Assembly (NCBI GenBank): GCA_002686085.1
Contig: NZAC01000006.1
Location: 48,036 to 112,035 of the forward strand
Source of the DNA: Roseibacillus sp.
Lineage (GTDB): Bacteria > Verrucomicrobiota > Verrucomicrobiia > Verrucomicrobiales > Akkermansiaceae
Length of the DNA stretch: 64,000 nucleotides
Reading direction: 5' to 3'
Below the pieces are notes generated by a model, which was not told where the DNA came from, ran no database searches, and saw only the letters and a program-made list of their open reading frames with translations. A program made the translations under genes and the position numbers. This document shows, piece by piece, positions 58,159 to 64,000 of this stretch (position 1 is the first letter of the stretch; each line of letters starts with the position of its first letter).

Positions 58159-59931
58159 TTACGTGAGAGGCCAGACCAACGGAATAAGTAGACAGGCAAT
58201 AATTCCTACAAGAATATTAAGGGGCAACCCAAAGAATACAAAGTCCCGGTAATTGTAGCCTCCGGGTCCATAGACAAGAAGATTCGTCTGATATCCCATA
58301 GGCGTGGCCATTGCGGTGGAGGCCGCGAAGGCAACTGCCATGATAAAAGGTTCCGGATGACATCCTAGCTTGGTGGCAAGCTCAATCCCCAATGGCGCAC
58401 AGAGAACAGCTGCGGGCTTATTCAAAATTAAAAGGCTCAATGCTGCCGCCATGAAATAAAACACCCATAACGTCACGTGTGGGCCCCACCCTCCAGTAGC
58501 CGTGTAGAGCTGCCCTGCCGCTATCTCAAGAGCACCGGTCCTATCCATGGCAGTGCCTAGCGCGATCATTCCCGCAATCAGGACCAGAACCGACCAGTCG
58601 ATAGAGCTGTAGGCATCCCGAGCAGTAAGTACTCCCGACAACACAAGAAATGCGGCTCCTCCGAGCGCCAGCACGCTGATCGGGGCAAGGCCAGTGGCAG
58701 CAAGCAGAACCACCATGAGAATCGTTCCCAGAGCCAGAGGAGCTTTATGGGGCTCAACGACCTCATCATGGACACCCTCCAGCAAGATGAACTCATTCTT
58801 TCTCCTTAAACTCTCCAGCGCATCGGACGTACCCCGGACGAGTAGAATATCGCCCATCCTGAGTTCGAGGTCAGCAATTTCACGCTGATGGTGCCGCCCA
58901 CGCCGCTGCAAAGCGAATACCGAAACATCAAAGCGCTGGCGCAGCCCGAGTTCTCGACAACTCTGACCAATGAGAGGCGACTCCGGCGCAACCATCAGTT
59001 CAAAGAGCGTCATTTCTACCCGTTTCACCTCAGAGCCATCGTCCTGGAGATCAGGTGCGATACTGATGGAGTGCTGCCTGTCGAGCTCGAGAATCTTGTT
59101 AAGTTCACCGCGGATCAGAAGAATATCGCCTTCATGAAGAAGCATCTCTGACTCCAGACGCTGGACACGATCACCTCGGATGAGTTCGGCCACCTTGATC
59201 CCCGCTGATGCAAGCGGTGTGTCCGCAAGGTTCTTTCCGATCAGATCTGAATCCAATCCTATGCTCACCTGTGTGATATATTCCTTGGCCTCATCCGCTG
59301 ACAGAGTTGAGGCAATCGTCGTATGATTGGGTAGGAGGCGCCATGAAAACAGAAGCAGATAGGCCATCCCTACCAAAACGATAACGATGCCTACCCCTGT
59401 GAACTCAAACATCCCTACGCCGAACCCGATCTCGGCAGCATAGGAAGCGATAAGGATATTTGACGAGGTCCCAATCAAAGTGCAGCTGCCGCCCAGCATT
59501 GAAGCAAACGAGATCGGCATGAGAAACTTGGATGGACTTGCCCCAAGACGCGCGCAAACGGTCAGCACTGCCGGTATAAAGACAACTACTACAGGGGTGT
59601 TGTTGATGAAGGCGGACATGAAGCATACCGCACATAGGGCCATCACCATGAAACGCATCGGGCTGCCGCGTGAAAAATCCGCTAATTTTGCTCCCAGGGC
59701 TCGAACCAGACCGCTTCTCATCAGAGCGGCACTCAGGACAAACATTGCCGCAATGGTCACCAGCGCTTCATTACTGAATCCAAGAAGAAGATCCTTCGGC
59801 TTCAAGATGCCAAGAGCACCTAAAACGACGATAATCAAGACCCCCACAATATCTGTCCTGACCCGATCGGTGACAAATAATACGACCGTGAGCAACAGCA
59901 TCACGTATACCACTATTACTTCCCAAGTCAT
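58159..59931 (-). CDS. SLC13-type permease with two TrkA-C domains
   Basis: 590 residues from ATG 59931 (frame open to 59973). Membrane segments flank a soluble middle: N-terminal transporter half (about 1-205, containing FINNTPVVVVFIPAV), two TrkA-C (RCK-C) regulatory domains (about 215-295 and 310-395), then the second half with LNKPAAVLCAPLGIEL. The paired NTP/NKP motifs of the DASS/CitM superfamily are visible. These proteins import dicarboxylates, sulfate or other anions with Na+. The substrate is unknown. Confidence 0.9.
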   Translation of the reverse strand: MTWEVIVVYVMLLLTVVLFVTDRVRTDIVGVLIIVVLGALGILKPKDLLLGFSNEALVTIAAMFVLSAALMRSGLVRALGAKLADFSRGSPMRFMVMALCAVCFMSAFINNTPVVVVFIPAVLTVCARLGASPSKFLMPISFASMLGGSCTLIGTSSNILIASYAAEIGFGVGMFEFTGVGIVIVLVGMAYLLLFSWRLLPNHTTIASTLSADEAKEYITQVSIGLDSDLIGKNLADTPLASAGIKVAELIRGDRVQRLESEMLLHEGDILLIRGELNKILELDRQHSISIAPDLQDDGSEVKRVEMTLFELMVAPESPLIGQSCRELGLRQRFDVSVFALQRRGRHHQREIADLELRMGDILLVRGTSDALESLRRKNEFILLEGVHDEVVEPHKAPLALGTILMVVLLAATGLAPISVLALGGAAFLVLSGVLTARDAYSSIDWSVLVLIAGMIALGTAMDRTGALEIAAGQLYTATGGWGPHVTLWVFYFMAAALSLLILNKPAAVLCAPLGIELATKLGCHPEPFIMAVAFAASTAMATPMGYQTNLLVYGPGGYNYRDFVFFGLPLNILVGIIACLLIPLVWPLT

Positions 59932-60018
59932 TCGTGCGCCACTAGGAATGCACCGCCTGTCGTGAGTGGTCAATCTGAACCGCAGCTCACCGCATCACGA
60001 TCTGGAACAGGAGCCTTG

Positions 60019-60816
60019 CTAGAGCGTGAAATTGGGGCTCTGCCTGAGGAAGCTCCGAGGATTTTCGTAAATCACTTTTTCGACAAGCTCACCAGCGTGT
60101 TGGCGCTTCTTCATCTCCAAGGCACATTTGATGACGGCCAGAGGATCAGAAATTCCCCAGTCACATGCCGAATTCATCCAAATGCGCTCCATCCCAAATG
60201 TCTCAAGAATGTCGATGGCCCTACCTGGCGTACATTTTGACTCAGGATACAGCGTCATCCCCGCCCAGAAGCCCGCATCAAGAGCAATGGCCGCAGTATG
60301 CTCTTCGACATGGTCAATAACCACACGATCAGGATTGACCTGAGCGTTTTTCAAAGCGTCCACAATCAAACGCGTCCCCTTGAGCTTGTCCTCAAGGTGA
60401 GGGGTATGAACGAGGATGGGGAGATCTCGCTCCTTTGCGAGAGCGATGTGCTCCTCTAGAATCGTATGCTCGTTTTTCGTATTCTTGTTCAGGCCAATCT
60501 CTCCAATCCCGAGCACGGTAGGCTTATCAAGGAATTCCGGGATGATCGACAAGACCTCTCTTCCAAAAACAACATCATCGCTTTCCTTCGGATTGATACA
60601 GAGCCAGGTAAAATGCGGAATTCCAAATTTTGCAGCTCGGGCAGGTTCATACTGAGTTAACTGACGGAAATAATCCTTGAACCCCTCTACTGATCCTCTG
60701 TCGTATCCCGCCCAGAAAGCAGGTTCACAAAGAGCCTCACATCCGGCCTGCGCAATAGACTGGTAGTCGTCTGTGGTCCGACTGACCATATGAGCGTGCG
60801 GTTCGATATAACGCAT
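60019..60816 (-). CDS. TatD-family metal-dependent hydrolase (EboB-like)
   Basis: 265 residues. The metal site is visible: EPHAH (His7, His9), LGIGEIGLNKN (Glu), LVHTPH (His), VIDHVEEH (His) and NSACDWGISD (Asp). Length fits the TatD/EboB group. EboB proteins are TatD-type members of the Ebo metabolite-trafficking cluster. It follows the small gene at 60858-61124 after 41 bases on the same strand, and the two are divergent from EboE/EboC-like genes, which supports the Ebo assignment. The substrate is unknown. Confidence 0.85.
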   Translation of the reverse strand: MRYIEPHAHMVSRTTDDYQSIAQAGCEALCEPAFWAGYDRGSVEGFKDYFRQLTQYEPARAAKFGIPHFTWLCINPKESDDVVFGREVLSIIPEFLDKPTVLGIGEIGLNKNTKNEHTILEEHIALAKERDLPILVHTPHLEDKLKGTRLIVDALKNAQVNPDRVVIDHVEEHTAAIALDAGFWAGMTLYPESKCTPGRAIDILETFGMERIWMNSACDWGISDPLAVIKCALEMKKRQHAGELVEKVIYENPRSFLRQSPNFTL

Positions 60817-60857
60817 GATATTCTCGGGTGTGCAGATGAATGTTGAGGTGCTACGCC

Positions 60858-61124
60858 CTAGTCTTGGGGTGCACCGTAAGCAAACTGGATCGTGGAGCTT
60901 TCCACCGGCTCTGTTGAATGATCGGAGAGTGATTCCAGAACCGCCTTGGCGCGGGGTTGATCTCCCGGATTCAACATCGCCTCCATAGCCTTGAGAAAGC
61001 CGGAATGGCGAAAGTCACTTTCTCCTTCATGACGATCGAGCCGGTCAAGAAACGCGGCAATGTCGATCAACTTGTAGCGAGCATCCATGAAATAGAGGTC
61101 GAGGATGTCTGTCTTGCTGGGCAT
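60858..61124 (-). CDS. Small conserved protein upstream of the TatD-like gene
   Basis: 88 residues from ATG 61124; the frame runs to 61409 but the earlier part lacks protein features. A helical acidic protein: KTDILDLYFMDARYKLIDIAAFLDRLDRHEGE, then SGFLKAMEAMLNPGDQPRAKAVLESL. No signal peptide. It occupies the place that EboA holds in classical clusters but is much shorter, and I do not assert homology. It ends 41 bases before the TatD-like gene, so it is probably co-transcribed. It could be a partner of the hydrolase. Confidence 0.65.
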   Translation of the reverse strand: MPSKTDILDLYFMDARYKLIDIAAFLDRLDRHEGESDFRHSGFLKAMEAMLNPGDQPRAKAVLESLSDHSTEPVESSTIQFAYGAPQD

Positions 61125-61221
61125 GCGGGGAATGTAGCCACCCGGAAAAGAATTCTGAAGGAGTAATTTGGCATAAAATCTACTGGCCCATTCTCGTTTC
61201 CCGGGGAATACAGGTCCGGGC

Positions 61222-61545
61222 ATGGGAGAACGCGACTTGGGAACACAACCTTTTGACCTTCTGATGGAGGCTTGGGGGCTCACGAACACGAACTTGGTTG
61301 AAACCTCACCGGAGCAGCTCACCCACAAGCAGGTTAGGCGCGCACGGTCAGGACGCCAGCTGACCCTCAAGATGATGATGAAAATCAACCGGACCTTCAA
61401 TATCGCCATCTGGTCGAAGCTCGATAATGAGCAAAAGGAAAAGTTTATCGAATATGGACATCGAGATCTCTTCTCCTATGCCAAGGGCCATGACAGCGGA
61501 TCCCCGGACCCCAATAAAGAACTGGCCGCAGAGATTCGGGGTTGA
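61222..61545 (+). CDS. Small HTH-like conserved protein, divergent to the TatD pair
   Basis: 107 residues from ATG 61222. The middle, PEQLTHKQVRRARSGRQLTLKMMMKINRTFNIAIW, resembles a Cro/XRE-type helix-turn-helix (LT.KQV..AR.GR.LT), followed by EQKEKFIEYGHRDLFSYAKGHD. It is divergent from the 88-residue gene (97 bases apart) and 93 bases before the EboE-like gene. It may be a local regulator; DNA binding is inferred from the pattern only. Confidence 0.65.
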   Translation: MGERDLGTQPFDLLMEAWGLTNTNLVETSPEQLTHKQVRRARSGRQLTLKMMMKINRTFNIAIWSKLDNEQKEKFIEYGHRDLFSYAKGHDSGSPDPNKELAAEIRG

Positions 61546-61638
61546 CCACGGCTCCCGCCAAGCTTCACTCGGCCTTCAACTCGTACTTTTATGAACCTTT
61601 TCTCATAAAGAGAATCTTGTCATCACTTCGTTCGTATC

Positions 61639-62784
61639 GTGCATCTTGATCACAACCACCACCTTTCCTACTGTACGAATATCCATCCTGCTGAAACGTG
61701 GGTGGAAACTCTGGGGGCACTGCAGGAGCACACCTTGAAGGTCAGGGACGAAGTGAGTCCGGACAAACCCTATGCGATCGGACTTCGCCTCTCTGCAGAC
61801 GCAGCCAGAGAACTTCTGGAGGGCGACAACCTTCCATCCTTCAAGGCCTGGCTCTCTGAACACGACTGCTATGTTTTCACTATCAACGGATTCCCCTACG
61901 GATCTTTCCACGGGACCCGTGTGAAGGAGAACGTCTATCGACCCGACTGGTCCTCACCAGACCGCCTGCTCTATACCAACAACCTGTTCGATATTATTGC
62001 TCAACTGGCACCCGAGGGCGTGGAGGGATCCGTTTCAACCCTGCCAGGTTCATTCAAATCCTTCGAAGCTGATGAGTCTGCCATCTTCGAGCATCTCGAG
62101 GCCTGCGCGCGACATATCGAGCTACTGGCAGAGCGCACTGGACGGGATCTGCACCTCGGGCTGGAACCAGAGCCTCTCGGCCACTTTGAACACACCCGGG
62201 ACACTGTTTCCTTTTTTGATCGCTTGCTGGATAGCTCTGACGATCCAGAACTCCTTCTCCGTAGAATTGGGATTAATTATGACACCTGCCATTTCGCCGT
62301 AGAGTTCAATGACTGTCACACGGCCCTCGATACCTTTCGGAAGGCCGGATTACGCATTTCCAAGGTTCACCTTTCCAACGCGCTGGCATTCGATCTCGAC
62401 ACCCCCAGTGCTCTTGAGGCGATCGCTCAATTTCACGAACCCACCTACCTGCATCAGCTGATAACCTCTGGAAACGGAACCAATCTGTATTTTACGGACC
62501 TTCCGGAAGCCCTTGCGGAGCTCAGAGACCCTGCATTCGGCTCTCAAGGACAGCAAGAAGCTCGGGTTCACTTTCACATACCGCTGTATGCCGAGCCAGA
62601 ACCGCCCCTCCGGTCAACCAAAGATCACGTCGGCGATCTCCTTGATTACCGCAAATCCCATCCGGAATTCTGCTCTCACTTCGAAATAGAAACCTACACC
62701 TGGGGCGTCCTTCCCGGAGACCTTCAGAAACCAATCGTTAGGCAGATTGCTGAAGAATACCGATGGGTATTTTCTCAACTATAA
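61639..62784 (+). CDS. eboE: EboE-like TIM-barrel metabolite-traffic protein
   Basis: 381 residues from GTG 61639. The beginning HLDHNHHLSYCTNIHPAETW, then GLRLSADAARELLEG, INGFPYGSFHGTRVKENVYRPDW and the barrel core DLHLGLEPEPLG, RRIGINYDTCHFAVEF and KVHLSNAL match EboE, a xylose-isomerase/sugar-phosphate-isomerase-like family. Known Ebo systems link it to movement or processing of a metabolite before export; its reaction is not settled. The gene is 27 bases before the EboC-like prenyltransferase, so one operon is likely. Confidence 0.88.
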   Translation: MHLDHNHHLSYCTNIHPAETWVETLGALQEHTLKVRDEVSPDKPYAIGLRLSADAARELLEGDNLPSFKAWLSEHDCYVFTINGFPYGSFHGTRVKENVYRPDWSSPDRLLYTNNLFDIIAQLAPEGVEGSVSTLPGSFKSFEADESAIFEHLEACARHIELLAERTGRDLHLGLEPEPLGHFEHTRDTVSFFDRLLDSSDDPELLLRRIGINYDTCHFAVEFNDCHTALDTFRKAGLRISKVHLSNALAFDLDTPSALEAIAQFHEPTYLHQLITSGNGTNLYFTDLPEALAELRDPAFGSQGQQEARVHFHIPLYAEPEPPLRSTKDHVGDLLDYRKSHPEFCSHFEIETYTWGVLPGDLQKPIVRQIAEEYRWVFSQL

Positions 62785-62811
62785 CTGCGGCCAAACTGGT
62801 CCTCCTGCCCC

Positions 62812-63804
62812 ATGAGAGAAAAGAGCCAGCGTATTCTTGATCTCCTTGCCATTGGGCGAGTGTCCAATCTCCCTACTGTCTGGTCGAACGGGCTCACAGG
62901 GTTTTTGGTGGCAAGATGCTTCCACGAAGCACCGGAGGATCTGACCAGGGAAATTGGCCTTATCGCTCTTCTCCTGGGATCCACCAGCTGCGCCTACCTC
63001 TTCGGCACCTTCCTGAACGACTGGAAGGATGCCTCGTTTGACGAGCAATACCGCCCCGAGCGTGCGATTCCAAGTGGACGCTGGTCACGCCGTGCGATTG
63101 GCAGTATCGCACTCGTCCTCTCAATCCTCGCTACGGCCTGTCTTATACCCCTCAGCCTCTCCTCTACCATTGTCCCTCTTCTCGGAACCGCGCTTCTTAT
63201 CAGCATCGTCTGCTATACCGTTCTGCATAAGAAAACCCCGACGGCAATTATTCCGATGGGACTCTGCCGGGGCCTCCTCTATCCGCTTGGATTTTTCACC
63301 GCTGCAAGCTCGTCTCCCGGACTGGCTCATTCTATTCAGCCTCTTCCCATAATCATTCTTATCGGCGTAGGATCTCTCGTCTATGTGGCCGGACTTACCC
63401 TTGCAGCCCGTTACGAAAGTGGACCCGCCGGAGGGACTATTCCCCGACTCACCCTGCGCCTTCTTCTTTTCGCCTGCCTTCTCACTCACAACTGGTGGTG
63501 GATCAGCGGACAATCCGGAGACCTTGGAGGAACTTCTGCCTTCCTCTCTGCCCTCCCGGCTCTCGCCGTATTTGTTCTCTGGACCGCTCGCAGCCTCTCC
63601 GTTCTTCGAAAATCTGTTCCGGAATTTGTCTCGCGCTCACTCGCAGGCATCTGCCTCGTGGATCTGCTGGCGTTTCCAGGAATCACGATCATGTTGCAGG
63701 CATCCAACACTTCAGTAATTTCCTGCCCCACCCTTCTCCCCTGCCTGCCATTATCATGTATGGTTCTATCTCTGGTTCTCCAGCGAGTTGCACCTGCAAC
63801 CTGA
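62812..63804 (+). CDS. eboC: UbiA-family prenyltransferase (EboC-like)
   Basis: 330 residues with about eight hydrophobic segments. The catalytic aspartate motif is complete: N69-D70-W-K-D73-A-S-F-D77, in FLNDWKDASFD, followed by QYRPERAIPSGRWS as in UbiA proteins. N26 in VWSNGLTG is also typical. EboC is the UbiA member of the Ebo cluster and should attach or transfer a prenyl group, or form a lipid-linked intermediate, at the membrane. It sits between EboE and a probable exporter, giving the order expected of a membrane-metabolite pathway. Confidence 0.9.
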   Translation: MREKSQRILDLLAIGRVSNLPTVWSNGLTGFLVARCFHEAPEDLTREIGLIALLLGSTSCAYLFGTFLNDWKDASFDEQYRPERAIPSGRWSRRAIGSIALVLSILATACLIPLSLSSTIVPLLGTALLISIVCYTVLHKKTPTAIIPMGLCRGLLYPLGFFTAASSSPGLAHSIQPLPIIILIGVGSLVYVAGLTLAARYESGPAGGTIPRLTLRLLLFACLLTHNWWWISGQSGDLGGTSAFLSALPALAVFVLWTARSLSVLRKSVPEFVSRSLAGICLVDLLAFPGITIMLQASNTSVISCPTLLPCLPLSCMVLSLVLQRVAPAT

Positions 63805-63856
63805 GTCCCCGTGGAGAAACCAATAGGCATGCCTCACCTTTAATCCCGGTTTGACG

Positions 63857-64000
63857 ATGCACCCCGACAGCAGCGACAGGGGCAAGACCTCCCTGCACCT
63901 TTCCGAGCGGTATTCCCATTTCCTGCTCAGGCGAAAAAATTGGTTCCTAGCTCTTCTTGCTATCGCAACCCTCCTCGCCGCTGCCGGACTGACTCAACTC
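63857..64000 (+). CDS. Start of a membrane protein, probably MMPL/RND-type exporter (truncated by window)
   Basis: 48 residues are visible from ATG 63857. A polar start (HPDSSDRGKTSLHLSERYSHF) precedes LLRRKNWFLALLAIATLLAAAGL, a short N-terminal tail and first transmembrane segment like those of MMPL/RND-type transporters. It starts 52 bases after the EboC-like gene on the same strand. An exporter here would fit an Ebo-type export function. With only the N-terminus visible this is uncertain. Confidence 0.45.
   Translation, partial: MHPDSSDRGKTSLHLSERYSHFLLRRKNWFLALLAIATLLAAAGLTQL

Follow-up and report, generated by a model that had tools for sequence, protein, structure and literature searches.

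A predicted complete EboG-type ebo gene module split over separate loci in a Roseibacillus genome, with scattered but jointly inherited counterparts in other Verrucomicrobiota

We investigated a 64,000-nucleotide stretch of a Roseibacillus genome (the window, G000:C6:48036-112035; the genome comprises 73 contigs), the right end of which carries genes of ebo, a system known from Cyanobacteria, Bacteroidota and Deinococcus and proposed to produce a lipid-like molecule that aids the passage of metabolites through the inner membrane. Judged from sequence, the genome possesses a complete EboG-type ebo module that is split over at least two loci, with eboG-eboB (minus strand) and eboE-eboC (plus strand) in the window on contig C6 and eboD-eboF on contig C62. 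We are highly confident that the four window genes are part of such a module. A sequence-only reading of the window had proposed a verrucomicrobial ebo system with EboB, EboC and EboE, and all of these parts were present at 60019-64000. The features of both loci are as follows.

58159-59973, minus strand: CitMHS/DASS-like transporter gene, directly 3' of eboB (PF03600, 310 bits)
60019-60816, minus strand: eboB, TatD-family metal-dependent hydrolase, 265 aa (BLASTP and PF01026)
60858-61124, minus strand: eboG, small helical protein, 88 aa, substitute for EboA (BLASTP and profile comparison with Deinococcus EboG)
61125-61221, no strand: divergent intergenic region of 97 bp between eboG and the plus-strand small gene, presumed promoter region (from coordinates)
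61222-61545, plus strand: small conserved protein, 107 aa, possible XRE-like DNA-binding protein, divergent neighbor of eboG
61639-62784, plus strand: eboE, xylose-isomerase-like TIM barrel, 381 aa, GTG start (NF035939)
62812-63804, plus strand: eboC, UbiA-family membrane prenyltransferase, 330 aa (PF01040 and reference-only EboC model)
63851-64000, plus strand: start of an MMPL/RND-family transporter gene, the full 771 aa lying at L005:6887-9202, past the window end
C62:6526-7686: eboD, sugar-phosphate cyclase, 43-48% identical to reference EboDs
C62:7713-9068: eboF, phosphodiesterase, 47-55% identical to reference EboFs

The three enzymes encoded in the window were assigned by profile and sequence comparison. 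EboE scored 432.6 bits on the NCBIfam equivalog model NF035939 (cut-off 250), and residues E176, D215, H218, H272, E349 and E351 were invariant across nine EboEs; the protein was 97% identical to that of Akkermansiaceae bacterium UBA5689 and 88-92% identical to those of several Roseibacillus metagenome-assembled genomes, relatives that place the genome in a marine, Roseibacillus-like branch of Akkermansiaceae. EboB (PF01026, 37.9 bits) was 54-55% identical over its length to the proteins of two annotated Deinococcus ebo clusters and 41-43% identical to EboA-type EboB by BLASTP, and its metal ligands, namely HAH (H7, H9), E106, H137/H140, H169 and D219, were invariant in 12 EboBs. The gene eboC adjoins eboE, starting 27 bp past it, and its product (PF01040, 54.8 bits) contains NDWKDASFD, a complete NDxxDxxxD motif, which was invariant in 15 EboCs. 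On a profile built from non-verrucomicrobial EboCs alone, this EboC reached 131 bits, compared with 34, 26 and 19 bits for the three other UbiA proteins of the genome. The EboE and EboC models scored above unrelated families; the reverse would have counted against the sequence-only reading. The nearest solved structure to EboC was digeranylgeranylglyceryl phosphate synthase (6m31). In the second half of the protein, where a further Asp-rich motif is typical of UbiA enzymes, the EboC family, references included, showed no invariant Asp and had invariant A199 and E202 (A...E).

Both small proteins, at 60858-61124 (minus strand) and 61222-61545 (plus strand), were conserved in related genomes. 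The system had been credited with small proteins of its own, which held for their conservation but not for the novelty of the minus-strand one: this is EboG, an already described alternative to EboA (PMC5133447). It was 37-40% identical to Deinococcus EboG (BLASTP, E 7e-10 to 8e-10; profile scores 58-75 bits), its counterpart in both Deinococcus clusters being the small protein between eboD and eboB, and in nearly all relatives its gene immediately preceded eboB. The possibility that EboG is a hidden EboA was rejected, as hhalign gave a probability of 0.2%, in agreement with PMC5133447, and its AlphaFold 2 (AF2) model, which consists of helices (predicted local distance difference test score, pLDDT, 83.5), had no match in the PDB. 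EboA was not found anywhere in this genome; in a sample of 388 genomes from the phylum, only seven were EboA-positive, all of them EboE-positive and belonging to the distant families f40 and f81. One relative contained a second eboG-eboB pair (G244:C174:6061-7098) that had diverged further than the first.

The genes eboD and eboF had been expected to the right of the window, an expectation that failed: neither occurred in the remaining 12.8 kb of the contig, which held the MMPL/RND gene, a lipoprotein gene, recN (minus strand) and unrelated genes. When the whole genome was searched for phosphodiesterases and for sugar-phosphate cyclases, they were located on C62, where the best EboF-type protein was encoded beside a second 3-dehydroquinate-synthase-like protein. 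In a tree, the latter grouped with reference EboDs and apart from AroB with a support of 100/100, and a separate aroB was present on contig C59. The start of a gene for a 135-aa hydrophobic protein (L100:9065-9472), for which no family was found, overlaps the eboF stop codon. The alkaline-phosphatase-like phosphodiesterase model PF01663 gave 61 matches in this genome, most of them weak; these probably represent sulfatases, which a marine organism that degrades polysaccharides would be expected to have.

The ebo genes of this genome are therefore not in one cluster, GB and EC lying on C6 and DF on C62. A single cluster is typical of ebo but not defining, since separated and unclustered cases were described in PMC5133447, including three Planctomycetes with scattered ebo genes as a precedent. 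Compared with those Planctomycetes, the partial clusters GB, EC and DF remain here, and joint inheritance could be followed over 55 to 388 genomes. The closest known counterparts were the EboG-type clusters of Deinococcus (NZ_CP097151.1 and NZ_CP140100.1; type defined in PMC5133447), which share all six proteins (D, G, B, E, C and F), with EboG replacing EboA and with the order G-B-E-C. The Roseibacillus module differs from those of Deinococcus in the inversion of eboG-eboB with respect to eboE-eboC, in the location of eboD-eboF on a separate contig, and in being flanked by an additional small gene and the MMPL gene. The EboA-type ABCDEF clusters of Bacteroidota and Cyanobacteria (Aureibacter NZ_AP025306.1, Nostoc punctiforme) share homologous B, C, D, E and F proteins; unlike them, this genome has no EboA, to which EboG is not detectably related.

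Gene order was then compared across related genomes, in which it was conserved; a lack of conservation would likewise have counted against the sequence-only reading. The two divergent arms described by that reading recurred in 12 Roseibacillus-like contigs (L020, L022-L031, L037) with the order CitMHS (minus), eboB (minus), eboG (minus), small gene (plus), eboE (plus) and eboC (plus), the CitMHS gene being cut or absent among them where a contig ends. Since these 12 contigs are independent, an assembly artefact or chance was rejected as the origin of the layout. In two of them, the small gene is separated from eboE by inserts of 3.4 and 5.7 kb that contain large open reading frames (e.g., 1793 aa) (L030:6552-10000 and L031:4332-10000). 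In sister lineages (e.g., L033-L035, L038-L043, L080, L087), the small gene (minus), eboG (plus) and eboB (plus) lie upstream of eboE, with eboG and eboB co-directional with it. Other families of the class have the order G-B-E-C-D (L112, L119, L126), in which the G-B-E-C part is the order of the Deinococcus clusters and, in our inference, the ancestral verrucomicrobial one. The simplest reading is that the divergent arms arose by one inversion of the small gene-eboG-eboB block, local to the Roseibacillus-like lineage.

Co-occurrence of the six genes was assessed by profile searches in 55 related genomes of known EboE status (35 positive and 20 negative). EboF, EboB and EboG were each found in all 35 EboE-positive genomes and in none of the 20 EboE-negative ones, and so was EboD at E below 1e-138, the EboE-negative genomes giving only AroB-level matches to the EboD profile, near 1e-45. 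EboC occurred in 34 of the 35 positive genomes, with weak matches in 2 of the 20 negative ones. When the 388 genomes of the phylum were searched for EboF at the looser threshold of 1e-40, matches appeared in 151 of 157 EboE-positive and 33 of 231 EboE-negative genomes; some of the latter matches may be paralogues.

This joint presence and absence did not depend on physical linkage. Six closed genomes of genus g2, which we take to be Akkermansia, carried the ebo genes at five places (GB, C, D, E and F), and partial clusters of the forms BCE+DF, GB+EC+DF and GB+CDE+F were found in other genomes. In G113, taken to be the type strain Akkermansia muciniphila ATCC BAA-835, the ebo set (eboE, eboC, eboF, eboD and eboG-eboB) lay on C1 at 23311, 345282, 477962, 789895 and 1181345 (L199-L203), and its EboC retained NDRVDARWD. 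Genes kept together in evolution though scattered support one shared pathway, with EboG as a core component, and for this family and its relatives they define a clean set of G, B, C, D, E and F without EboA. If G113 is indeed that strain, a cultured gut bacterium would offer a tractable system for tests of function. In the open-access literature searched, no paper was found that connects ebo genes to Akkermansia or to any other Verrucomicrobiota, subscription literature not being covered. Neither the verrucomicrobial inversion nor the scattered, jointly inherited module of Akkermansia and relatives was found reported in the literature searched; the EboG type of ebo itself is of an already known kind.

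Considering these results together, the best explanation for the whole is a complete EboG-type ebo module making a prenylated carrier-like product for metabolite traffic, to which we give a probability of about 0.5. In Nostoc mutants with ebo deletions, the scytonemin monomer stays trapped in the cytoplasm (PMC6282210); 8-hydroxyquinoline-2-carboxylic acid is farnesylated in vitro by an EboC homologue (PMC9235831); and EboD has been placed near sedoheptulose-7-phosphate cyclases (PMC5133447). In the mechanism that we propose tentatively, with slightly less than even confidence, EboD would form a cyclitol by cyclizing a sugar phosphate that is probably sedoheptulose 7-phosphate; EboF, a phosphodiesterase of the alkaline phosphatase superfamily, and the metal enzymes EboB and EboE would trim or rearrange intermediates; and EboC would prenylate the product in the inner membrane, with EboG in an accessory role or as an assembly subunit. 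Either the prenylated product, as a carrier-like molecule, or the enzyme complex producing it would then be required for a cytosolic metabolite to reach the periplasm, just as the scytonemin monomer depends on ebo genes in Nostoc. Links to scytonemin genes were not seen here, although no search for scy genes was made. Sequence comparison establishes the gene identities, the intact catalytic motifs, the conserved neighborhoods and the joint presence and absence of the six genes, and several points weigh against the explanation as a whole. A natural substrate is known for no ebo enzyme, the in vitro substrates of EboC are quinoline acids rather than cyclitols, and the transport function was demonstrated in a cyanobacterium alone. 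In the AroB tree, the ten ebo-less Akkermansia genomes fall into a single clade, implying one joint loss from five places and not ten, so that the instances of co-occurrence cannot be counted as independent. Furthermore, long branches made a tree of EboC with references and other UbiA proteins uninformative, which is why the reference-only profile was used, and EboC scored only 84 bits on NF035940, below the NCBIfam cut-off of 250. However, that cut-off was also missed by EboCs from annotated ebo clusters of Deinococcus, Azospirillum and Ketogulonicigenium (80-107 bits), so it cannot serve as a defining feature of ebo.

In the main rival explanation, the useful end product of the module is a bioactive secondary metabolite in its own right, either a prenylated cyclitol or a prenylated aromatic acid, serving, e.g., in defense, and the traffic phenotype is a cyanobacterial side effect; we regard this as a realistic but minority possibility. 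The enzyme content looks like that of a biosynthetic pathway, an isoprenoid-cyclitol product was argued for in the founding paper (PMC5133447), the prenylation of quinoline acids by the EboC homologue (PMC9235831) fits as well, and mutation of edb/ebo in Pseudomonas makes the bacteria edible to nematodes (PMC6282210). Nevertheless, a stand-alone metabolite does not explain why each single ebo deletion in Nostoc blocks the export of another pathway's product, and the broad, mostly single-copy retention of ebo in the phylum is more like that of a housekeeping or cofactor role. It is extremely improbable that these enzymes belong to ordinary sugar and lipid metabolism, as a TatD nuclease, a sugar isomerase and a housekeeping prenyltransferase that merely resemble ebo proteins. 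The generality of the Pfam families and the NF035940 score of EboC would suit such an origin; the equivalog score of EboE, the similarity of EboB to its Deinococcus counterparts, the presence of eboG, eboD and eboF and the strict co-occurrence of all six genes already contradict it.

The probable multispan transporter that had been noticed at the window end was borne out, its gene being completed beyond the window and encoding an MMPL/RND protein of 771 aa (PF03176, 99.7 bits against a cut-off of 20.5), in which sterol-sensing and Patched domains were also recognized. It shares the MMPL fold family and the sterol-sensing domain with lipid transporters of the HpnN and HAE3 types but scored below their curated cut-offs (HAE3, 189 vs. 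352; HpnN, 122 vs. 752). The gene starts about 46 bp 3' of eboC on the same strand, and the two are probably co-transcribed. An MMPL gene followed eboC in 10 of 24 testable loci, all Roseibacillus-like. A lipoprotein gene lies behind it (L005:9294-10034), encoding a LASC lipobox and a C-terminal hydrophobic stretch and belonging to a family found in non-Akkermansia Akkermansiaceae.

That the MMPL/RND protein, possibly together with the lipoprotein, exports the ebo product or cargo in the Roseibacillus-like lineage as part of an extended ebo-export operon appears unlikely. The position behind eboC, the sterol-sensing and Patched domains, which suit a lipid cargo, and the occurrence of the lipoprotein family beside eboE or eboC in some other genomes speak for it. 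Against this, 4 members of that lineage and all 10 of the remaining testable loci lacked the MMPL gene, and the lipoprotein was missing from Ebo-positive Akkermansia, was often unlinked and neighbored recN as often as ebo genes. Both were accordingly rejected as parts of ebo in general, the MMPL gene as lineage-specific and the lipoprotein as no core component, and the earlier suggestion that an RND/MMPL pump replaces other export steps was not sustained. In other genera, the neighbors downstream of eboC had no transporter family in common. A combined proposition is similarly unlikely, namely that A. muciniphila and many other Verrucomicrobiota use scattered, jointly inherited genes to make an EboG-type product, probably a cyclitol-like carrier or metabolite bearing a prenyl group, and that the MMPL protein exports it in the marine Roseibacillus-like branch.

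Among 80 loci, 24 contained the gene for the 107-aa protein, and it lay head-to-head with eboG whichever way the block was oriented; its retention of this position on both sides of the inversion hints at a link to eboG. The protein had no Pfam match, and Foldseek matches to its AF2 model (pLDDT 83.5) were mostly helix-turn-helix repressors, but with E >= 0.7, which suggests no more than a candidate XRE-like regulator. No sigma-70-like site in the 97-bp divergent region, and no promoter or terminator signal, exceeded chance. At the other edge of the locus, the CitMHS/DASS-like gene adjoined eboB only in Roseibacillus-like loci and is probably a lineage-specific neighbor outside ebo.

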